Positions 5,011 to 60,003 of a stretch of 64,000 nt of DNA are shown piece by piece (within the stretch, counting starts at the first letter, position 1; each line of letters opens with the position of its first letter). This stretch comes from Deroplatys truncata (taxonomy: Eukaryota; Arthropoda; Insecta; Mantodea; Mantidae). Both the position numbers and the translations under genes were made by a program. The stretch covers positions 198,680,507 through 198,744,506 of the forward strand of contig CM060975.1 of NCBI GenBank assembly GCA_030765065.1. Direction: 5' to 3'. Under the pieces are notes generated by a model, which was given only the letters and a program-made list of their open reading frames with translations, searched no databases and was not told the DNA's origin.

Positions 5011-5637
5011 TAATTTCTCTACTACGTACAGTAAGTAGGGGAAGTATTGCATTCCACCCAAAAATTCGATACCGAGATTTCACCGGAAATACATGTTTTG
5101 AGACCCCCTGAATCCAAAAAAAGCATTTTTGGAAACATATCCGTGTGTTTGTCTGTGTGTTTGTGTGTGTCAGTCTGTGTCTGTGAACAGCATAACTCAG
5201 AAACAACAGTTGGATAAACACCAAACTTGGTATTTAGTATCTTCCAGAGATGTGACGCAAAGGTTTTCAAGAAAATCCCCCCACGCCAGTTTACTCTTTA
5301 CATGAACATTTTTCGAAAATTTTAATTTTCTCAAAAATGGCTCTAACGATTTTGATTAATATATCATATATTTAAGATACTTTCATGACAAATAAAATGT
5401 ATATCTTGAATTTTCTGGGAATGTCTCCAAAAGTATTCTTCAGTGTGAACGACTTTTGCATAGCTGGTAAACCATAAGAGAAAGACAAAAGTTAACTACA
5501 CAAAAAATGTAGATCGCGTTAAAATACACAATTTATGTCATATACATTTTTTTTGAGCGAACATTTTCGAGATATTGTTTGTTATTCCCTTAAATTTTCC
5601 AATACTTATACTTTTTCTCAAATTCTTTATTCATTTT
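5011..5637 (+). repeat. HINE-like repeat, head unit 1 of a composite
   Basis: Begins TTTCTCTACTACGTACAG. A (GT)n-like block lies at 5142-5182, followed by AACAGCATAACTCAGAAAC and the body. It stops at the T-run TTCATTTTT, exactly where the next head begins, so its own tail is separated from it. Confidence 0.85.
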
Positions 5638-5638
5638 T

Positions 5639-7205
5639 ACTTTCTCTACTACGTATAGTAAGTAGGGGAAGTATTGCATTCCACCCAAAAATTCGATACC
5701 GAGATTTCACCGGAAATACATGTTTTGAGACCTCCTGAATCCAAAAAAAGCATTTTTGGAAACATGTACGTGTGTGTGTCTGTGTGTGTGTGTGTGTGTC
5801 TGTGTGTCTGTGTGTCTGTGAACAGCATAACTCAAAAACGAACAGTCGGATAAACACCAAACTTGGTATTTAGGTTCAGTATCTTCCAGAGATGCGACAC
5901 GAAGGTTTTCAAGAAAATACCCCCACCCCAGACTACCCTTTACATGGAACATTTTTCGAAAATTTTAATTTTCTCAAAAATGGCTCTAACGATTTTGATG
6001 AAAATATCATATGTTTAAGATAATGTCATGAGAAATGAAATGTATATCTCGAATTTTCTGGGAATGTCTCCAAAAGTATTCTTTATTGTGAACAACTTTT
6101 GCATAACTGGTAAACCATAAGAGATACACAAAATGTTACTACACAAAAAGTGTAGATCGCGTTAAAATACACAACTTATGTCATATACATTTCTTTTGTT
6201 GAGTGAACCGTTTTGGAGATATTGCTTGTTATTTCCTTAAATTTTCCAATACTTATACTTTTTCTCAAATTCGTTATTCATTTTTTTTATGTCCTGGACA
6301 TGCAAAGAGAATGGAATGCACCACATAGCAACCAGCGTTAAAATATTTGACTATCGCTTAAAAGCTACCATATTCCCCTTGCATCTACAAGAAAATTACC
6401 AATAAGATTGACATATCGATATCTCGATTAACATGAAGCATATGGAGAATAGGCGTTTTTTAAAAATAGTGTGTACAAGAGTAGAGAAAGTCATGTGAGT
6501 GTAACACATCAGATTTTTTTTATGTCCTGGACATGCAAAGAGAATGGAATGCGCCACATAGCAACCATCGTTAAAATATTTGACTATCGCTTAAAACCTA
6601 CCATATTCCCCTTGCATCTACAAGAAAATTACCAATAAGATTGACATCTCGATATCTCGATTAACATGAAGCATATGGAGAATAGGCGTTTGTAAAAATA
6701 GTGTGTACAAGAGTAGAGAAAGTCATGTGAGTGTAACACATCAGATTTTTTTATGTCCTGGACATGCAAAGAGAATGGAATGCGCCACATAGCAACCAGC
6801 GTTAAAATATTTGACTATCGCTTAAAAGCTACCATATTTCCCTTGCATCTACAAGAAAAATACCAATAAGATTGACATCTCGATATCTCGATTAACATGA
6901 AGCATATGGAGAATAGGCGTTTGTAAAATTAGATTGTACAAGAGTAGAGAAAGTCATGTGAGTGTAACACATCAGATTTTTTTATGTCCTGGACATGCAA
7001 AGAGAATGGAATGCGCCACATAGCAACCAGCGCTTAAAATATCTGACTATCGCTTAAAACCTACCATATTCCCCTTGCATCTACAAGAAAATTACAAATA
7101 AGATTGACATCCCGATTAACGTGAAGGATATGGAGAATAAGCCTTTGTAAAAATAGTTTGTACAAAAGTAGAGAAAGTCATGTGAGTGTGACACATCAGA
7201 TTTTT
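5639..7205 (+). repeat. HINE-like repeat, head unit 2 plus four tandem tails
   Basis: Head 5639-6280 starts ACTTTCTCTACTACGTATAG. Four tail units then follow, with ATGTCCTGGACATGC at 6289, 6522, 6753 and 6984, a period of 231-233 bp. Each tail carries GAGTAGAGAAAGTCATGTG or a near copy (inverted copy of the head start) and the hairpin ATGTG-loop-CACAT before CAGATTTTT. The last unit lacks one of the doubled CGATATCTCGAT blocks. No protein is encoded; short frames come from the (GT)n tract. Confidence 0.9.
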
Positions 7206-13785: not shown

Positions 13786-15390
13786 TTGTATTTTGAGTTT
13801 GAGGTATTACTTTTAAGTGAAGTAGATCTACCAATCGCAAATGCAGAACAGGAAGAAGTCCCACCCACACTACCAAGAGAAGTGGAACATACACTTAACG
13901 AACTAAGAAACTATAAAACGTCTAGAGAAGATAAGATCATAAATGAATGCCTAAATTGTGGGGGCTGAAACACTAGCAAAACCATTAGCTACGATATTCA
14001 ACAAAATATTACAGACGCAAGACATGCCATCCCAGTGGCGAACGATCTCAATCATACTGTTAATAAAAAATATGACAGGAATAAATTAAACAACTACAGG
14101 CCGATAAGCCTGATATCAAATCTTTATAAAGTATTTCCTAGCAATAATCACGTGCAGATTAACCAAGTTCTAGAGTAAAACAAGCCTTATGAACAATCAG
14201 GATTTCGAACAGGATACAGTATGATCCAAACCTCCAAACAGTCATTCGGGTAATAGAAAAGAGCCGAATAGAAAAGAGGAGGTGCATAACCTTCGTAGGC
14301 TACAGCAACCCTTCGACTCCGTTGACCAAAGGAAAGCCATAAAATCCTTACAAGCAATGGAACAGAAAGTAAATGATGGAGAAAATTTGCATTAATGGCT
14401 ACACTAAAGTCAAAACAGAGATCGAAGGAGACACATCCAAGCTGAAAAGAGGTATGAAGTAATGGGAACCAATCTCACTTAAGATTTTCACATGCCTGCC
14501 GGAAATTGAACTCCACCCATTAAAATGGGACAATAAGCGAAAAAGACTCAACAGAAATCGAAGGATGTTGTCCAACCTAAGCTTCGGGGACGACATGACT
14601 CTTTTTGCAAAGTCAGCAAATAAGCTAGAGACCATGCTCAAAGAACAAAACATCAGCCAAGAAGTAGAACTACGGATGAACTCAACAAAGACGAAAGTAA
14701 TGACAAATGTTGGGAAATCGCCAATAGTATTGGATGGGACAACTATGAAATGTTTGTGGGACTACACTTACTTGGGACAAAGTATTTTGATGAGGGAAAA
14801 CGGCGAGGCAGAGATCAAAAGAAGAGTCAGCGCAGCGTGGTGGCAGTTCTGGTACTTGACGGATATTCTACTAAACACACAATGTTACATGAAATTGAAA
14901 ATGCAAGTCATGGAATCATGCATAATACCACTGCTTATATTTGGATACGAGACGTGGTGCTTCACCAAATGCCAAACATAAGCCCTACAAGTGTGTCAGA
15001 GAAAGATGGAACTGAAAGTGTGAACATAAGGCTACAAAATAGAATACGAAATACCGAAATGAGAAGAATGACAGGAATGGAGGCACAGCAGTACGCGCAC
15101 GACAACTCAAGTGGAAGTGGGGAGGCCATGTAATAAGGATAGACTACGGAAGATGGGCCCGCGTGTCCATAGTTGGGACAACTGTCTCAGGAAGAAAGCA
15201 GAGGTCGCGTACGCAAGAGATGGTCAGACGAGCTGATAGAGATAGAGTAGCTAGAAGAAGATGGACTGTTCTTGCCAAGGACCACCAACTGTGGAAGGAA
15301 GTCACCGCTGAGGAGTTAAAACTCAGTCAACAATATAGTGTTAAGGACAATAGTGTTGTACTAAACTTTGATGAAAGGGATAATGTGTAA
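13786..15390 (+). pseudogene. LINE reverse transcriptase remnant
   Basis: Broken frames give the expected order of a non-LTR retrotransposon polymerase. First comes TLNELRNYKTSREDKIINE (usual form NGKAPGEDGI). Then ETLAKPLATIFNKILQTQ with WRTISIILLIKN, and NYRPISLISNLYKVF. The catalytic box is LSFGDDMTLFAKSANKLETM, with GDD in place of the usual ADD. Later come KTKVM, YTYLGQ, PLLIFGYETW and the C-terminal NRIRNTEMRRMTG. Multiple stops and frame changes, for example after 13968, 14981 and 15133. The 5' endonuclease part is absent, so it is 5'-truncated. Confidence 0.8.
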
Positions 15391-16409: not shown

Positions 16410-17633
16410 CACTATGTGATCAAAAGCATCCGAACACCCCACAATCATACGTTTTTCATCTTAGGTGCATTGTGCTGCCACCTATTGCCTGGTAATCATT
16501 ATCAGTAGTCATTAGACATCGTGAACAACAGCAGAATGGGACGCTCCGTGGAACTCACGGACTTCAAACGAGCTCAGGTGATTGGGTGTCACTTGTGTCA
16601 GAAGCCTGTACGCGAGATTTCCACACTCCTAAACATCCCTAGGTTCACTGTTTCCGATGTGATAGTGAAGTGGAAACGTGAAAGAACATGTACAGAACAA
16701 AAGTGCACAGGCCGACCTCGTCTGTTGACTGACAGAGACCGCTGACGTTTGAAGAGGGTCGTAAAGAGTAATAGGCAGACATCTATCCAGACCATCACTC
16801 AGGAATTCCAAACTGCATCAGGATCCACTCCAAGTACTATGACAGTTAGGCGTGAAGTGAGAAACCTTGGATTCCATGGTCGAGCGGCTGCTCATAAGCC
16901 ACACATCACGCAGGAAAATGCAAACGACGCCTTGGTTGGTGTAAGGAGCGTCAACATTACACGATTGAACAGTGGCAAAACGCTGTGTGGAGTGACGAAT
17001 CACAGTACACAATGTGGCGATCCGATGGCAGGGTGTGGATATGGCGAATGCCCGGTGAACGTCATCTGCCAGTGTGTAGTGCCAACAGTGAAATTCGTAG
17101 GTGGTGGTGTTATGGTGTGGTAGTGTTTTTCCTGGAGGAGGCTTGCACCGCTTGTTGTTTTGCGTGACACGATCACAGCGTGGACCTACATTGATATTTT
17201 AAGCACCTTCTTGCTTCCCACTGTTGAAGAGAAATTCGGGGATGGCGATTGCATCTTTCAACGCGATCGAGCATCTGTTCATACTGCACGGGCTGTGGCG
17301 GAGTGGTTACACGACAATAACATCCATGTAATGGACTGGCCTACACAGAGTCCTGACTTGAGTCCTATAGAACACCTTTGGGATGTTTTGGAACGCCGAC
17401 TTCGTGCCAGGCCTCACCGACCTACCTCAGTTCCGCACTCCGTGAAGAATGGGCTGCCATTCCCCAAGAAACCTTCCAGCACCTGATTGAAAGTATGCCT
17501 GCGAGAGTGAACACTGTCATCAAGGCTAAGGGTGGGCCAACACCATATTGACTTCCAGCATTACGGATGGAGGGCACCACGAACTTGTACGTCATTTTCA
17601 GCTAGGTGTCTGGATACTTTTTATCACGTAGTG
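16410..17633 (+). mobile_element. Tc1-like transposon, copy 1
   Basis: Left end CACTATGTGATCAAAAGCAT and inverted right end CACTACGTGATAAAAAGTAT form terminal inverted repeats of about 30 bp. TA target duplications lie at 16408-16409 and 17634-17635. The length of 1224 bp is normal for a Tc1-like element. It lies inside the Tigger element, between the Tigger left end and its transposase, so it inserted later. Confidence 0.93.
16536..17551 (+). pseudogene. Tc1-like transposase, inactivated
   Basis: The N-terminal paired-type helix-turn-helix is readable (MGRSVELTDFKRAQVIGCHL, then GRPRLLTDRDR). The DD34E catalytic triad is visible: D in VWSDESQYT, D in FQRDRASVH and E in SPIEHLWD, with 34 residues between the last two. 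It is broken by an in-frame TGA at 16743 (fits CGA to TGA decay), a frame change near 16920 that is undone near 17085, a TAG at 17121, and another frame change near 17430. The C-terminus is recoverable to a TGA near 17551 in the shifted frame. No activity is expected. Confidence 0.9.
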
Positions 17634-30090: not shown

Positions 30091-30675
30091 TGCTTTCTCT
30101 ACTACGTATAGTAAGTAGGGGAAGTATTGTTTTCCACCCAAAAATTCGATACCGAGATTTCACCGGAAATACATGTTTTGAGACCCCCTGAATCCAAAAA
30201 AAGCATTTTTGGAAACATATCCGTGTGTGTGTGTGTGTGTGTCTGTCTGTGAACAGCATAACTCAGAAACGAACAGTCGAATAAGCACCAAACTTGGTAT
30301 TTAGGTTCAGTATCATCCAGAGATGCGACACGAAGGTTTTCATGAAAATTCCCCCACCCCAGATTACCCTTTACATGGAACATTTTTCGAAAATTTTAAT
30401 TTTCTCAAAAATGGCTCTAACGATTTTGATTAAAATATCATATGTTTAAGATATTTTTATGACAAGTAAAATGTATATCTTGAATTTTCTGGGAATGTCT
30501 CCAAAAGTATTCTTCATTGTGAACGACTTTTGCATAACTGGTAAACCATAAGAGATAGACAAAATTTTACTACACAAAAAATGTAGATCGCGTTAAAATA
30601 CACAATTTATGTCATATACATTTGTTTTGTTGAGTGAACCATTTTCGAGATATTGCTTGTTATTCCCTTAATTTT
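30091..30675 (+). repeat. HINE-like repeat, head unit 1 of a composite
   Basis: Starts GCTTTCTCTACTACGTATAG, has a (GT)n at 30223-30243, and ends in CCCTTAATTTT where the next head starts. As at 5.0 kb, the head is cut at its own T-run and lacks an adjacent tail. Confidence 0.88.
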
Positions 30676-30676
30676 T

Positions 30677-31578
30677 ACTTTCTCTACTACGTATAGTAAG
30701 TAGGGGAAGTATTGCATTCCACCCAAAAATTCGATACCGAGATTTCACCGGAAATACATGTTTTGAGACCTCCTGAATCCAAAAAAAGCATTTTTGGAAA
30801 CATGTCCGTGTGTGTGTCTGTGTGTGTGTGTGTGTCTGTGTGTGTGTGTGTGTCTGTGTGTGTGTGTGTGTGTGTGTCTGTGAACAGCATAACTCAAAAA
30901 CGAACAGTCGGAGACGCACCAAACTTGGTATTTAGGTTCAGTATCTTCCAGAGATGCGACACGAAGGTTTTCAAGAAAAACACCCCACCCCAGACTACCC
31001 TTTACATGGAAGATTTTTCGAAAATTTTAATTTTCTCAAAAATGGCTCTAACGATTTTGATGAAAATATCATATGTTTAAGATAATGTCATGAGAAATGA
31101 AATGTATATCTCCAATTTTCTGGGAATGTCTCCAAAAGTATTCTTCATTGTGAACGACTTTTGCATAACTGGTAAACCATAAGAGATAGACAAAATTTTA
31201 CTACACAAAAAATGTAGATCGCGTTAAAATACACAACTTATGTCATATACATTTCTTTTGTTGAGTGAACCGTTTTCGAGATATTGCTTGTTATTTCCTT
31301 AAATTTTCCAATACTTATTTTTTCTCAAATTCGTTATTCATTTTTTTTATGTCCTGGACATGCAAAGAGAATGGAATGCGCCACATAGCAACCAGCGTTA
31401 AAATATTTGACTATCGCTTAAAAGCTAGCATATTCCCCTTGCATCTACAAGAAAATTAGCAATAAGTTTGACATCTCGATATGTCGTTTAACATGAAGCA
31501 TATGGAGAATAGGCGTTTGTAAAATTAGATTGTACAAGAGTAGAGAAAGTCATGTGAGTGTAACACATCAGATTTTTT
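30677..31578 (+). repeat. HINE-like repeat, head unit 2 plus tail
   Basis: Head 30677-31340 with (GT)n 30808-30880, then a single tail (ATGTCCTGGACATGC at 31349) ending GTAACACATCAGATTTTTT. The inverted dodecamer AGTAGAGAAAGT is near 31542. The 122-codon plus frame at 30712 is repeat-derived. Confidence 0.9.
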
Positions 31579-31904
31579 CAATACTATTTTCTCAAATGGG
31601 AATTCGTTATTCATTTTTTTTTGTCTTGGATATGCAAAGAGTATTAATCTGTGGGAAAGGGAATGGTGCTGCACCTAGCAACTAGCTATTAAGAGATATG
31701 TATGTGCTTAAAGGCTACTGTATTTCTATATTGCCCTTGTAAATATATATTCCCTTTACATCTACAAGAAAGTTAGCAATAAGATAGAGTCTGCAAATGT
31801 TTATCTCGATTAACATGAAGTAGGTGGAGAATAAGTGTTTGTAAACATAATTTGTACAAGAGTAGAGAAAGTCATGTGAGTGTAACACTCAGATTTTTTT
31901 TAAT
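31579..31904 (+). repeat. HINE-like tail, diverged second copy
   Basis: Carries GGGAATTCGTTATTCATTTT, then TATGCAAAGAG and ends AGTAGAGAAAGTCATGTGAG, TGTAACACTCAGATTTTT. It is longer and more diverged than the preceding tail, consistent with being the tail of the older, interrupted element. Confidence 0.75.
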
Positions 31905-37615: not shown

Positions 37616-38252
37616 ACTTTCTCTAATACGTATAGTAAGTAGGGGAAGTATTGTACTCCATCCATAAATTCGATACCGAGATTTCACCGGAAATATATGT
37701 TTTGAGAGCCCCTGAATACAAAATAAAGCATTTTTGGAAACATCTCCGTGTGTGTGTCTGCGTGTGTGTGTCTGTGTGTGTGTCTGTGAACAGTATAACC
37801 CAGAAACGAACAGTCGGATAAACACCAAACCTGGTATTTAAGTTCAGTATCTTCCAGAGATGCGACACGAAGGTTTTCAAGAAAATCCCCCCACCCCAGA
37901 TTACTCTTTATATGGAACATTTTTCGAAAATTTTAATTTTCTCAAAAATGTCTCTAACGATTTTGATTAAAATATCATATGTTTAAGATATTTTCATGAC
38001 AAATGAAATGTATATCTCGAATTTTCTGGGAATGTCTCCAAAAGTATTCTTCATTGTGAACGACTGTTGCGTAACTGGTAAACCATAAGAGATAGACAAA
38101 CGTTTACTACACAAAAAATGCAGATCGCGTTAAAATACACAATTTATGTCATATACATTTTTTTTGTTGAGTGAACCGTTTTCGAGATATTGCTTGTTAT
38201 TCCCTCAAATTTTCCAATACTTATACTTTTTCTCAAATTCGTTATTCATTTT
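37616..38252 (+). repeat. HINE-like repeat, head unit 1 of a composite
   Basis: Starts ACTTTCTCTAATACGTATAG, with (GT)n 37748-37789. Ends in GTTATTCATTTTT at the next head, as in the 5-kb and 30-kb composites. Confidence 0.88.
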
Positions 38253-38253
38253 T

Positions 38254-39333
38254 ACTTTCTCTACTACGTATAGTAAGTAGGGGAAGTATTGCATTCCACC
38301 CAAAAATTCGATACCGAGATTTCACCGGAAATACATGTTTTGAGACCTCCTGAATCCAAAAAAAGCATTTTTGGAAACATGTCCGTGTGTGTGTGTGTGT
38401 GTGTGTGTGTCTGTGAACAGCATAACTCAAAAACTAACAGTCGGATAAACACCAAACTTGGTATTTACGTTCAGTATCTTCCAGAGATGCGACACGAAGA
38501 TTTTCAAGAAAATCCCCCCACCCCAGACTACCCTTTACATGGAACATTTTTCGAAAATTTTAATTTTCTCAAAAATGGCTCTAACGATTTTGATGAAAAT
38601 ATCATATGTTTAAGATAATGTCATGAGAAATGAAATGTATATCTCGAAATTTCTGGGAATGTCTTCAAAAGTATTCTTCATTATGAACGACTTTTGCATA
38701 ACTGGTAAACCATAAGAGATAGACAAAATTTTACTACACAAAAATGTAGATCTCGTTAAAATACACAACTTATATCATATACATTTTTTTTGTTGAGTGA
38801 ACCGTTTTCGAGATATTGCTTGTTATTTCCTTAAATTTTCCAATACTTATACTTTTACTCAAATTCGTTATTCATTTTTTTATGTCCTGGACATGCAAAC
38901 AGAATGGAATGCGCCACATAGCAACCAGCGTTAAAATATTTGACTATCGCTTAAAAGCTACCATATTCCCCTTGCATCTACAAGAAAATTACAAATAAGA
39001 TTGATATCTCGATATCTCGATTAATATGAAGCATATGGAGAATAGGCGTTTGTAAAAATAGATTGTACAAGAGTAGGGAAAGTCATGTGAGTGTAACACA
39101 TCAGATTTTTTTTATGTCCTGGACATGCAAAGAGAATGGAATGCGCCACATAGCAACCAGCGTTAAAATATTTGACTATCACTTAAAACCTACCATATTC
39201 CCCTTGCATCTACAAGAAAATTACCAATAAGATTGACATCTCGATTAACATGAACCATATGGAGAATAAGCGTTTGTAAAAATAGTTAGTACAAGAGTAG
39301 AGAAGTTATATGAGTGTAACACATCATATTTTT
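38254..39333 (+). repeat. HINE-like repeat, head unit 2 plus two tandem tails
   Basis: Head 38254-38877, then tails with ATGTCCTGGACATGC at 38882 and 39114 (232-bp period). Overall order is head-head-tail-tail, exactly what a nested insertion at the head/tail T-run would produce. Confidence 0.9.
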
Positions 39334-51818: not shown

Positions 51819-53220
51819 CACTGCCGTTTGTGAAAATTGCAACACCAAGAAAATTCTCCGAATAACTCCAAACTTAGTGGAAGTGTAGAAGTGTGTGCGA
51901 GGAATAGGTGATTAGGTTTGCAGAGAGATGGGGTACATTTAGCTCCAGCAGAGCCCTCTTGTGTCGGTCCGACAAGGTCAGTGTTGCGCCCAGTGTAGTC
52001 AGTGCAGAGCTGTCAAACATGGTGGAAACAATAAAGTGAGAGTCAGTATGCCTCGTCGACGTCAAAGGGAGCCACATCGGCATGTGAGTGAGTTCGAACG
52101 GGGCAGAATGATCGGTCTCCGGGAAGCGGGTTTGTTATACCGTGGCATTTCGGCTCATACAGGGCATGCTGCTACGGCAGTGATGCGTGTGTGGAAGCAG
52201 TGGATAGATGAAGGTCTACGCAGCGAAGAGCGGGTACTGGACCACGGAACATGACCACAGCGCGGGATGACCGTCATCTTCTCCGCATGGTCATAACGGA
52301 GCGTACAGCTTCATCCACAATGTTGGCTCGACGCTGGAGTACTGCAATAGTTGAGAAGCTGTCTGCATCAACGGTTCGTCGCCATCTGCTGCAGGTAGGA
52401 CTGGTTGCATGCATGCCATTACGTCGGCTTCCATTGTCCAGAAACTACAAGCTCATCCGACTGTAATGGGCACGTGAACACCGTCACTGGGGGGCTGAGT
52501 GGAAAAATATGGTCTTTTCGGACGAGTCCCGCTTCAACGTGTCCTACAGTGATGGCCGCATACGTGTCCAGCGGTACCGTGGTGAGCGCAACCTGGAGGG
52601 ATATGTTGAGCGGCATAGTGGACAAACACCAGGTGTGATGGTTTGGGGCGCCATTGGTTACAACAACCGATCTCACCTCCTACGAATTGAGGGCACTTTG
52701 AACAGCAACCAGTACCTAACGGTAGTTGTAGAGCCTGATGTACTGTCCCTGCTTCAGGCATCTCCACAGGCCACATTTCAACAGGACAACGCCCGGTCAC
52801 ACATTGCGAGGAATGTACAAACCTTCTTCGAAGAGCGACGGGTACTATTGCTTCCCTGGCCTGCACGTTCGCCTGATATGTCGCCCATTGACCATGTCTT
52901 TGATATGGTTGGTCGGCACCTGGTGCGTCACGGTCCTCCAGTAACCAGTGTCACGGATTTGTGGGCTCGAATACAAACTGCGTGGAGGGAAATCCCTCAG
53001 GAATTTATTCAGAACCTTTCTGATTCAATACCTTGGCGTATAGCAGCTCTAATTGCAGCGCATGGAGGGCACACCTAATACTGAATATTAGGGCTCAAAG
53101 GTCATGTATACATTTGAAAAGTTTATCATTTGTTACGTGTCATATACCTAACCTGTGGTATTAAATTTATTGAATTCATGCGTTTCCTTCTTGGAGTTGC
53201 AATTTCCACAAACGGTAGTG
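51819..53220 (+). mobile_element. Tc1-like transposon, copy 2 (different family)
   Basis: Left end CACTGCCGTTTGTGAAAATT and inverted right end CACTACCGTTTGTGGAAATT, then GCAAC(A/T)CCAAGAA on both. TA duplications at 51817-51818 and 53221-53222. 1402 bp. Terminal sequence is unlike copy 1, so it is a separate lineage. Confidence 0.93.
52048..53078 (+). pseudogene. Tc1-like transposase with DD34D, inactivated
   Basis: Starts at ATG 52048 (MPRRRQREPHRHVSEFERG). The N-terminal helix-turn-helix (RGRMIGLREAGLLYRGISAH) is followed by a frame change near 52235-52250. It continues with TTARDDRHLLRMVITERTAS and an in-frame TAA at 52464-52466 (RL*WAREHRHW). The catalytic part from 52509 is open for 189 codons: VFSDESRFN, TFQQDNARSH, and SPDMSPIDHVFD. 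The last acidic residue is D (GAC) instead of E, 34 residues after the second D, and the following W is F. Ends TAA at 53076-53078. One frameshift and one stop are enough to kill it. Confidence 0.92.
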
Positions 53221-57195: not shown

Positions 57196-58647
57196 TACTA
57201 TTTTAAATTGCAAGCTTTATAGTGTTAAAGTGGTTACCCTTTAGTTTTTCACGAGTTTCATACAAAGAGAAGGCAATATCAAAGCTAGCACATACAGTTG
57301 TGTCTCAATTTCCTCTATGCCGCTGTGTGCCCAATTTTTTTTTCATGGTTTTCTCAAATGGAGAGATGGAGTGGCTGGAGGGCATGCTTCCCAAGGCGGT
57401 TCCAGCCCCTGGGTGAGTCCGTCTTTTTGATTTGATGCCAAATGTCTGGCACTCCAACATTAGCCTATGAACACAGGTCGTTTTCACGCTCAGAAACGAA
57501 GGAAAAGGGATGAAAAAGACACATTAAGTAGAGTGCTAAAACCAGATAAGACGCATGGCAAAGGGGGTTTATTATTTTCTTACCAACCACTGTGCATTAT
57601 ATCAGCATGATTCCATGCACTCGACTGTAATGTTTTCTATAAATTCTTTTCAGAATTAGAGATTAAAACCTGATCACCAGCAAACATAAATGTGAGAGTA
57701 AACTCGTATCCCCAAAAGATTATATAACTAGATACATAAATACACCATTTATTGTAACAGTGCCAATTATTGTGAATGTATGAAAAGCGGGTAGTGCTAC
57801 CTGAGATAGGCGATGTCATATCTCAGCAGCATATCTTTCCCAGCGCAGCAAGCCACTGCTCCCAGCGGAGATTTCGTCGAGTTGGCCGTAAGCTCCAGGG
57901 ACATTCTGGAGAAGACTGGACCCTGGAACAGGGGCTGGGGGAGCGAGACTACCACTATAAATATGAAATGTCGTAATTTTCCTAATGGAAGTTTACATAT
58001 TCAAAGTGAAGGCGCAAAGAGGACGCCATTTCTTTTTCTCTCGGAAAGGTGTGTATAAAAACGAACAAGGGGGAGGAGAAAGATTTTTTTTCTCTACCTG
58101 ATGCGAGGGTTTAAAGCTAAATGGAGGTGTCATTTGTTTTTCTCTAAATCGCAATGTCAGAAGCCGTTTCTCACTTGTACGAAGCAACGTGTAACATGGA
58201 TTGTAGAAGTTCAAAGAGACACGACCCAATCCCTATGGCAGCGTCATTCATTACTTGAAGCTGAACAAAAAATATAAACCTGGGGCTCCTTAACATCAAA
58301 TGGTCGATTTTCCTAATTGCCCTACTGGAGAAAAGTAAAATGTGAAGAGTGGAGGCATGTATGAAATTTTCTTTGAGGCTTTACAGGGCTGTAAAAATTA
58401 TAGGCTCTGACTCGAACTTTGGGCTGAAGAATGAGATGATCTTATAGTTTGCACAAAAACCATTAGCTTAATTGGCATTTCTTGCATACGATAGGTTCTT
58501 GCTTTCTGTTTCAGGCTTCTAGGCTATAGAAAATTATGCACTGTAGCCAAGATGTCGATATTAGGTTTTCACTGGAAAGGCATGCTTAATGGCATTCTAA
58601 AACATCATTTTGTGAGGTCAAAAAGCTGTCGTGTGTGGGCGGGTATG

Positions 58648-58681
<34 letters not shown>

Positions 58682-58858
58682 TGTATGTATGTATGTATAC
58701 TTCAAAACTTTAATTAAATGTTATAAACTGTTAACACTTATATAACACATAAGATATGTTTCTTGCATTTTCGATAAAATGCATATGAAGACCAAATAGA
58801 AAGAACAAGCCAATTAATGCTTTCGATAAAAATTAGATATCCATACCCTCTGTTTTTT
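57196..58858. other. Unassigned stretch with a GC-rich block and (ATGT)n
   Basis: 57775-57950 is GC-rich (TCCCAGCGCAGCAAGCCACT, GGGGCTGGGGGAGCGAGAC) and unlike its flanks. It may be an unrecognised LTR or SINE. No gene is supportable. Confidence 0.4.
58643..58698. repeat. (ATGT)n microsatellite
   Basis: About 13 TATG/ATGT units. Confidence 0.95.
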
Positions 58859-58859
58859 T

Positions 58860-59727
58860 ACTTTCTCTACTACGTATAGTAAGTAGGGGAAGTATTGTAT
58901 TCCACCCAAAATTTCGATACCGAGATTTCACCGGAAATACATGTTTTGAGACTTACTGAATCCACAAAAAGCATTTTTGGAAACATATCCGTGTGTGTGT
59001 CTGTCTGTGTGTCTGTGTGTCTGTGTGTCTGTGTGTCTGTGAACAGCATAACTCAAAAACGAAGAGTCGGATAAACACCAAACTTGGTATTTAGGTTCAG
59101 TATCTTTCAGAGATGCGACACGAAGGTTTTCAAGAAAATCCCCCCACCCCAGACTACCCTTTACATGGAACATTTTTCGAAAATTTTAATTTTCTCAAAA
59201 ACGGCTCTAACGATTTTGATTAAAATATCATATGTTTAAGATATTGTCATGACAAATAAAATGTATATCTCGAATTTTCTGGGAATGTCTCCAAAAGTAT
59301 TCTTCGTGACTTTTTCATAACTGGTAAACCATAAGAGATAGACAAAATTTTACTACACGAAAAATGTAGATCGCGTTAAAATACACAATTTATGTCATAT
59401 ACATTTCTTTTGTTGAGTGAACCGTTTGCGAGATATTGCTTGTTATTCCCTTAAATTTTCCAATACTTATACTTTTTCTCAAATTCGTTATTCATTTTTT
59501 TATGTCCTGGACATGCAAAGAGAATGGAATGCGCCACATAGCAACCAGCGTTAAAATATTTGACTATCGCTTAAAACCTACCATATTCCCGTTGCATCTA
59601 CAAGAAAATTAGCAATAATATTGACATCTCGATATCTCGATTAACATGAAGCATATGGAGAATAAGCGTTTGTAAAAATAGTTTGTACAAGAGTAGAGAA
59701 AGTCATGTGAGTGTAACACATCAGATG
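58860..59727 (+). repeat. HINE-like repeat, best single-unit copy
   Basis: Reference copy for the family: one head and one tail, 868 bp. ACTTTCTCTACTACGTATAG at the start. (GT/CT)n at 58991-59040. Head/tail T-run at 59492-59500, ATGTCCTGGACATGC at 59502. AGTAGAGAAAGT at 59691-59702, then hairpin ATGTG(AGTGTAA)CACAT and CAGAT. Little decay relative to the composites, so relatively young. Confidence 0.92.
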
Positions 59728-60003
59728 TTTTATTTATAGACGCTCCTTAACCACTGTGATCCTTAACATCCCGTCCTATATTGGGCCTCAAAGACAGGCA
59801 TTTTTGCTCAGAGGCCTCTTTATGGGCTTGAGGTTCTTTTACGTAAATCTACGACACGGGGACACTGGCTTTACTTCCCTTCCGAAGGAAGCCATTCTAA
59901 GGATTTTTACGTTCAAAAAAATCCATTTCCCTCCGCTGGGTTTGAACCCGCTCCTCGGAAACAAGAGGCTCTAGCATGGTAACCACTACACCAAGGAGGA
60001 CGC
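59727..60003 (-). repeat. SINE-B, near full length, minus
   Basis: Minus strand: CCTTGGTGTAGTGGTTACCA, then GCTAGAGCC, then B box GGTTCAAACCC, body, ending TCTATAAATAAAAC. It abuts the HINE-like copy to the base. Confidence 0.78.

Follow-up and report, generated by a model that had tools for sequence, protein, structure and literature searches.

What kind of element is the dispersed repeat that recurs along a 64,000-nucleotide stretch of the Deroplatys truncata genome (the window), and by what enzyme is it moved? The original prediction, made from the letters of this stretch, assigned the family to the Helentron-associated (HINE/DINE-1-like) elements. Its termini, its insertion at T runs and an autonomous partner with the same ends all support that assignment. 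The reading reached here, at a probability of about 95%, classes the family as a HINE: a Helentron derivative of ~866 bp, non-coding and non-autonomous, that would be moved in trans, in a rolling-circle-type process, by a Helentron Rep-PIF1-endonuclease encoded elsewhere in the genome. Within the open-access literature covered, the family and its Helentron are new members of a kind already known, and a description may exist in a subscription paper. What makes the system valuable is the T accounting at its junctions, its self-nesting and the large number of long, open frames of its partner.

Anatomy and abundance of the family

The focal copy was delimited at both ends and carries the following features.

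58860..59725, + strand: complete HINE copy, differing by 1.3% from the consensus built on 46 full copies
58853..58859, + strand: T run at the 5' junction, T7 in the focal copy and exactly T5 in 54 of 92 junctions
58860..58871, + strand: 5' subterminal inverted repeat (subTIR) ACTTTCTCTACT, exact in 41 of 46 full copies
58882..58893, + strand: 3' arm of the 5' hairpin, AGTAGGGGAAGT, pairing with the 5' repeat; a DINE-1-type inverted repeat
58966..58970, − strand: T run, second internal landing site; T7 at consensus 105, broken by one substitution in the focal copy
58991..59041, + strand: internal GT-rich microsatellite GTGTGTCT
59495..59501, + strand: T7 run at consensus 631, the internal site where self-insertions in the same orientation mostly land
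59692..59703, + strand: 3' subTIR AGTAGAGAAAGT, the exact inverse of ACTTTCTCTACT
59705..59721, + strand: 3' hairpin ATGTG-AGTGTAA-CACAT, which also ends the autonomous copies
59722..59730, + strand: 3' terminus CAGA (59722–59725), then the T-rich junction, TGTTT in the focal copy

The 12-mer at one end and its inverse inside the other, on which the original prediction was built, are both present and exact, and at 12 bp the pair falls within the 12–15 bp of HINE subterminal inverted repeats. With up to one mismatch allowed, the window holds ACTTTCTCTACT 25 times where 0.53 occurrences would be expected, and none of 100 shuffles reached 25. The start of the element folds into a long hairpin through pairing of ACTTTCTCTACT with AGTAGGGGAAGT, which lies 10 bases downstream and is kept exactly in 42 of 46 full copies. 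The original prediction lacked this strong feature, whose fold energy none of 200 shuffles equalled (z = −3.93). The hairpin noted between the inverse and the end is in place and conserved, although its free energy is unexceptional (z = −0.34); its support comes from the whole 24-mer, which is kept in 35 of 46 full copies, and from its presence in the autonomous partner. The element thus combines an inverted repeat at the 5' subTIR with a 3' stem-loop, as HINEs do. The 3' repeat ends 22 nt short of the CAGA end, leaving the termini asymmetric. The predicted internal (GT)n corresponds to the GT-rich microsatellite, whose tract is 14–74 nt long in the 31 of 46 copies measured. Variable tandem units were found only in part, since TRF reported no tandem units other than the microsatellite in the focal copy; longer units, of 231 bp, lie at 6282–7205 of the window.

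No coding capacity was detected, the consensus frames being at most 81 aa long. Across the five frames of at least 50 aa, substitutions by codon position were 130/97/90, 77/66/79, 53/51/70, 96/83/85 and 43/76/72. There is no consistent third-position excess, and therefore no protein is indicated. A minus-strand frame of 82–97 codons in several window copies was considered as a gene and rejected on the same ground (96/83/85 across 46 copies).

A profile built from seven copies identified 38 family fragments in the window, covering 16,944 bases (26.5%), none of them between 9149 and 29406. Within the 4.29-Gb assembly, the family made up 12.1% (SE 3.3) of 40 sampled 1-kb stretches, placed nonrandomly at round-number positions on 13 chosen contigs, and some family sequence was present in 14 of the 40; the first 20 of those kilobases gave 18.9% (SE 5.7), and reversed sequences, used as a control, gave one match. 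The family would then amount to roughly half a billion bases, an estimate with broad error limits. Such a load is not unprecedented, since the total Helitron load in morabine grasshoppers is put at 17–22% in the available text of one study (PMC7754599). A genome search returned at least 3,323 first-look candidates, and the 46-copy consensus was built from the best-scored 40, their neighbours and four window copies. Because only these best 40 were scored, the collected copies represent the young end of the family: 33 of the 46 full copies are 0.8–2.8% from the consensus, and two are at about 25–27%. An IMG/VR scan with the 30-base 5' end gave no matches, and a literature scan for both 12-mers returned unrelated papers only, as judged from titles and the beginnings of abstracts.

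The window also contains two Tc1/mariner-type transposase remnants (HTH_Tnp_Tc3_2, DDE_3; 16746–17483 and 52467–53075) and a weak reverse-transcriptase remnant, under the Pfam cut-off, at 14463–14978. A (GTAT)14 microsatellite at 58643–58698, ~160 bases upstream of the focal copy, sits within an old family fragment (58531–58708).

An autonomous Helentron with the same ends

The original prediction placed the mobilizing helicase outside the window. A genome search with the Pfam Helitron_like_N model gave 152 matches, with 150 of 291 candidates scored, and among the matches listed were at least 18 Rep-bearing frames of at least 2,000 codons. Seven of these 18 long-frame copies were chosen for analysis of their ends, and one of them, C9, was fetched whole (L089/L088) and scanned for domains. 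Counted from the earliest start listed, its frame is 2,303 codons long and contains the following domains.

C9 residues 46–191 (L088 192–900): Herpes_teg_N, a tegument-type deubiquitinase domain, N-terminal
C9 frame: DUF6570
C9 residues 938–1129: Helitron_like_N with QMRGSPHEHM, E = 1.2e-27
C9 residues 1593–1815: PIF1 helicase, E = 1.8e-28
C9 C-terminus, scanned alone: AP-type endonuclease Exo_endo_phos_2 (PF14529), E = 1.9e-6

The endonuclease assignment is narrow, at 28.2 bits against a cut-off of 27.4, with the domain unlisted at E 0.01 in the whole-protein scan; a search of solved structures with this domain gave no good match (best E = 0.42). The tegument-type domain in L088 holds QCTSNS and DPH, presumably where catalytic residues might be expected. 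In the one copy scanned, Rep and PIF1 thus share a single frame, and the Rep motif VEFQMRGSPHEH holds the serine of the RGS signature that Thomas et al. give as a Helentron mark in the portion of their text available (PMC4067079). A second, higher-scoring group of Helitron_like_N matches, in which six members score 163–196 bits (C1:38116489, C13:170325206, C4:128870265, C16:246487701, C2:18813252 and C16:491171456) and five of these six carry stops, is perhaps an older or canonical Helitron lineage. When 324 kb of fetched sequence (L001–L008 skipped) was scanned for the Rep motif with a regular expression, none was found.

The ends of the autonomous unit, which is ~10.4 kb long, are those of the HINE. 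Alignment of C9 with a second copy on another contig was continuous at 98.7% identity and started at T5-ACTTTCTCTACT. The 3' end TGTAGAGAAAGTTATGTGAATGTAACACATCAGA-T6 to T9 was present in all seven copies and the 5' end in six, the start of the seventh lying beyond the fetched stretch. Compared with the HINE consensus, C9 matches at 58 (outer 5' end) or 59 (inner 5' end) of the first 60 bases and at 36 of the last 39, and consensus 1–634 is 94.2% identical to C9. The 5' subTIR is identical in the two elements and the 3' subTIR agrees at 11 of 12 positions, 11 of them contiguous, which places HINE and Helentron in one family by the rule of at least 11 bp of identical subTIR. For a subfamily, the available text of Thomas et al. 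(PMC4067079) asks for identity of 80% or more across the final 60 bp; HINE and C9 agree there at 42 of 60 positions, ungapped, and by this rule do not form one subfamily. The genome may hold a further Helentron subfamily with a closer match to the HINE. An apparently intact autonomous relative of the type foreseen, with Rep, helicase and endonuclease, therefore occurs in the same genome, and what the shared ends enclose is Rep/PIF1/Exo_endo_phos_2 and not the DDE transposase that the original prediction had named as contrary evidence.

A double 5' end in tandem was found in all five autonomous copies with enough 5' sequence (L089 2622–4035; also L090, L094, L096 and L098). The outer end corresponds to HINE 1–637, and the inner one restarts at position 1 and runs to 748 where fetched. 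This is the composite that would be expected if a Helentron had inserted at a HINE T7 run and then moved from the outer 5' end; self-insertion composites have been proposed for Fusarium in the sections available of a study of that genus (PMC5148889). Five of the seven autonomous copies lie inside HINE copies and the other two in other DNA. Three of these insertions are at the 631 site, including that of C8, for which the 3' side was covered; one is at 105 and one near consensus 120, these last two in opposite orientation to the host HINE. With at least 18 long open Helentron-type frames and very many non-autonomous relatives, the genome offers a good system for a mechanism that, in the literature covered, has been studied mainly on a reconstructed canonical Helitron (PMC5876387).

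T counts at the junctions, self-nesting and 3'-end arrays

Across all collected ends, the 5' junction carried five Ts in 54 of 92 cases, six in 13, none to four in 18 and seven to nine in 7, and the base preceding the run was A in 56 of the 92. On the 3' side 5–11 Ts were counted in 93 of 107 junctions and 0–4 in 14, the distribution dropping off sharply below five. The T7 runs within family copies allowed these counts to be compared with empty sites, the unfilled runs serving as empty and self-insertions as filled. At the consensus-631 site the uninterrupted run was T7 in 29, T8 in 15 and T9 in 2 copies (n = 46). When filled, the left side was T5 in 14 of 17 and T6 in 3 of 17 (22 pattern matches minus 5 that proved to be unrelated sequence), and the right side T6 in 1, T7 in 9, T8 in 4 and T9 in 1 (n = 15). 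The consensus-105 site was T7 in 50, T6 in 2 and T8 in 2 uninterrupted copies (n = 54), plus one T5 variant, and when filled gave T5 on the left in 4 of 4 and T7 on the right in 5 of 5. As a rule at these two T7 sites, N-T(n) becomes N-T5-body-T(n) and nothing else is duplicated; the element's own T7 runs thus yield a definite count, with five extra Ts on the 5' side and the target run left whole on the 3' side. Insertion in T-rich sequence without other modification of the target is characteristic of HINEs. The T-run flanks of the original prediction, with insertion between T and T, were likewise borne out: the focal copy has T7 on its 5' side and T-rich sequence on its 3' side, and alignment with flanks of the nested copies showed no consistent duplication beyond Ts, a duplication of Ts alone being possible.

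Some junctions depart from this count. At a third nested site, near 597, the filled run was T6 on the right in two cases (L025 and window 31577) and T5 on the left, and uninterrupted copies had T4 in 43, T5 in 6 and T3 in 1 (n = 50); in the host variant closer to these cases, 5 of 6 had T5. These counts do not fit a gain of five, so the gain here was six or more unless the hosts had longer runs. The autonomous copy C4 at the 105 site has T6 and T6, an equal total differently split. The 25 full copies that touch no other copy follow a looser version of the pattern, with left counts of five in 11, six in 6, seven in 2 and fewer than five in 6, and right counts of 5–11 in 21 and fewer than five in 4. 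The five additional Ts could be read in three ways that would look alike within T runs: the element may carry T5 at its 5' end and enter at the left edge of the run, it may carry the Ts at its 3' end and enter after the fifth T, or five Ts may be duplicated. What stands firm in this accounting is the near-fixed left count. Thomas et al. (PMC4067079), in the passages available, propose indiscriminate cutting within the T run for Helentrons and leave the sharing-out of the terminal Ts open because the targets are themselves T runs. The near-fixed left count differs from such indiscriminate cutting; as the element's own T7 runs provide replicate empty sites of definite count, cutting looks near-fixed at the left edge. 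This fits insertion after the second base of WTTTT at 8 of 10 D. yakuba sites, as given in the available portion of Yang and Barbash (PMC2374699).

Eighteen two-sided collinear nests were identified in 39 fetched genome stretches and the window. Fourteen are at the consensus-631 T7 run, two at the minus-strand 105 T7 run, one near 597 and one near 503, and in all 18 the orientation of the inserted copy matches the strand of the T run. One stretch, L047, holds a three-level +(-(+)-)+ nest at the 105 site. The nests in the window are as follows.

5014..7205, + strand: outer copy 5014–5638, inner full copy 5639–6518, 231-bp units 6515–7205
30093..31898, + strand: full copy 30677–31577 within 30093–30676/31574–31898, at the T run near consensus 592
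37616..39333, + strand: full copy 38254–39110 within 37616–38253/39106–39333, at the 631 T7 run

A rate of nesting was taken over L009–L044, the 36 stretches with a full focal copy (L045–L047, whose focal copies are interrupted, were excluded). By hand tally, the focal copy lies inside a family copy in 14 of the 36 (L011, L013, L014, L015, L020, L021, L022, L028, L030, L031, L032, L033, L035 and L038), L020, L031 and L032 being counted through insertion in another copy's 3' T run; three more touch a family copy on one side only. In the forty sampled kilobases, 40 of 252 T runs of at least five lie within family sequence, which compared with 14 of 36 gives p = 0.002 (Fisher), or p = 0.0001 (Fisher) when autonomous copies are included (19 of 43). 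A pooled binomial test with a base rate of 0.25 gives 0.005. A preference of the family for its own sequence is likely but not proven, because the base rate comes from a small sample and the statistics ignore clustering. It is possible, though on balance unlikely, that the element homes to itself, with T7 landing pads on opposite strands used by the autonomous Helentron as well, under one cutting rule beside T5 at the left edge. If true, self-homing would spare genes from a very abundant element, and bypass of the inner 3' end would build composites and 231-bp arrays, satellite seeds, without local duplication.

The 231-bp tandem units of the window recur as extra units in L028, L030, L033 and L035, and each spans the element from its T7 run to the 3' end. 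Altogether 33 matches start at model 596–656 and run to or near the 3' end. Among the 28 units starting at 628–640, 27 directly adjoin an upstream CACATCAGA-type 3' end, the exception (L013 1085) being a diverged piece ~20 bases past such an end; of the other five starts, two at 596 also follow a 3' end and those at 611, 651 and 656 do not. A free 231-bp B element with a cryptic 5' end was rejected on the position of these 27 units. Local tandem duplication is also unlikely as the source of B arrays: neighbouring pairs, picked by start spacing, shared no rare variants in 15 of 15 cases, and sharing within loci (0.03) was lower than between loci (0.06), so simple local duplication is unlikely unless it occurred right after insertion. 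The spacing filter leaves out plus-strand full-copy/B neighbours, and one such pair, at window 5639/6515, has one shared rare variant, a hint of duplication there. One-sided composites were found in L010 (2001–3150), L016 (1989–3623) and L025 (2001–3184), each with a same-orientation internal fragment on the 3' side of the insert only; that of L010 runs no further than model 599 and so does not reach the 3' end, and L039 has an opposite-orientation one-sided piece. The mirror arrangement, with the internal fragment confined to the 5' side, was found in none of the copies examined, tandem near-full copies aside. Composites one-sided towards 3' are what end bypass following self-insertion should produce. 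Such bypass also predicts a full copy plus B at fresh sites lacking an outer A, and no case of this was seen for the 631 T7 run among the copies listed. The B arrays may have arisen by repeated nesting with loss of 5' parts, by end bypass or by conversion.

Could the nests descend from a small number of composites by copying, or have arisen by local tandem duplication, rather than by independent insertions? The double 5' end shared by 5 of 5 autonomous copies and the one-sided composites at L010, L016 and L025 would suit such an origin. Yet in 15 of 18 nests divergence is greater for the outer copy than for the inner one (Wilcoxon p = 0.004), the window's two site-631 nests have different outer flanks, and the 15 tested neighbouring pairs of 3'-end units have no rare variant in common, all of which makes it improbable.

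Alternatives, mechanism and related systems

Three other classes of element were weighed against a Helentron-derived HINE. If the family were a MITE with subterminal repeats that a DDE transposase mobilized by cut-and-paste, duplicating a 5-bp TTTTT target, it would be equally expected to add five Ts and rarely to leave fewer than five on the right, and Tc1-type DDE frames occur in the window. A staggered cut in T7 should, however, give several registers, whereas left T5 dominates (14 of 17); the ends are asymmetric, the 3' repeat lying 22 nt before the CAGA end; and these ends also belong to Rep-PIF1-endonuclease elements. With repeats both subterminal and asymmetric and any duplication limited to Ts, the family does not have the form of a TIR-MITE, and this origin is very unlikely. 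A non-autonomous canonical Helitron, with 5' TC, 3' CTRR and insertion between A and T, is scarcely credible given ends of ACTTT and CAGA-T that lack CTRR, and a partner with the Helentron serine in Rep and a C-terminal endonuclease, even if A precedes the 5' T run in 56 of 92 junctions and no duplication goes beyond Ts. Next to no weight can be given to a T-tailed retroposon, whether a SINE or of another kind: the T-rich 3' junction, high copy number and non-coding sequence would be in keeping with one, but the plus strand of the consensus has no pol III box A or B and the minus strand has two box-A and no box-B matches. The absence from the window of tRNAs and of Rfam matches at gathering level argues against a SINE too, as do the near-fixed 5' T5, the precise 3' end, a duplication of Ts at most and the Helentron ends.

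For the HINE reading, the mechanism suggested by these sequences is that the Helentron Rep-PIF1-endonuclease would move the HINE in trans, most likely by single-strand, rolling-circle-type copying. The enzyme would cut next to T5 at the donor 5' junction, at the 3' end and at the target, and the 5' and 3' hairpins could signal where copying starts and stops. In support are the predominance of insertions at T runs of at least five, the many young copies and the recurrent hits in the family's own T7 runs.

The closest comparison is with HINE/DINE-1 elements and Helentrons of mite, Culex and Drosophila, as described in the available parts of two reports (PMC4067079, PMC2374699). Shared features are subTIRs of 12–13 bp, a 3' stem-loop, a 5' inverted repeat partly nested in the 5' subTIR, a GTCY-type microsatellite, a T-rich target without other duplication, and a Rep/helicase/endonuclease partner with the same ends. 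An inverted repeat beside the 5' subTIR of DINE-1 is described by both Yang and Barbash (PMC2374699) and Thomas et al. (PMC4067079), and the 5' hairpin found here probably corresponds to it, as matched by description. In contrast, the 3' subTIR ends 22 nt before the T run here and 38–60 bp from the end in mite, and the 5' T5 is near-fixed here whereas T numbers vary in mite and Culex (PMC4067079, text available). The heavy self-nesting at two T7 runs is also unlike the HINE/DINE-1 elements described in the available portions of these reports (PMC4067079, PMC2374699).

Cg_HINE of the Pacific oyster, from the available account (PMC7492417), is likewise a group of non-autonomous Helentrons with tandem repeats, T-rich targets and no duplication; its tandem repeats are central, whereas the 231-bp unit here is the element's own 3' part. 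FoHeli/Helitron2 of Fusarium oxysporum (PMC5148889, sections available) resembles the present family in its asymmetric inverted repeats, 5' hairpin, 3' end ATTTT and self-insertion composites in which several 5' ends go with a single 3' end. It differs in having a TNAT/A target in two subgroups and 559 predicted copies, and variation in 3' T number is unreported in those sections. At the level of domains, the partner, with Herpes_teg_N at its N-terminus, resembles the VTD-bearing Helentrons of zebrafish, insects and others, in which a tegument-like deubiquitinase domain has already been published (PMC9741609, text available).
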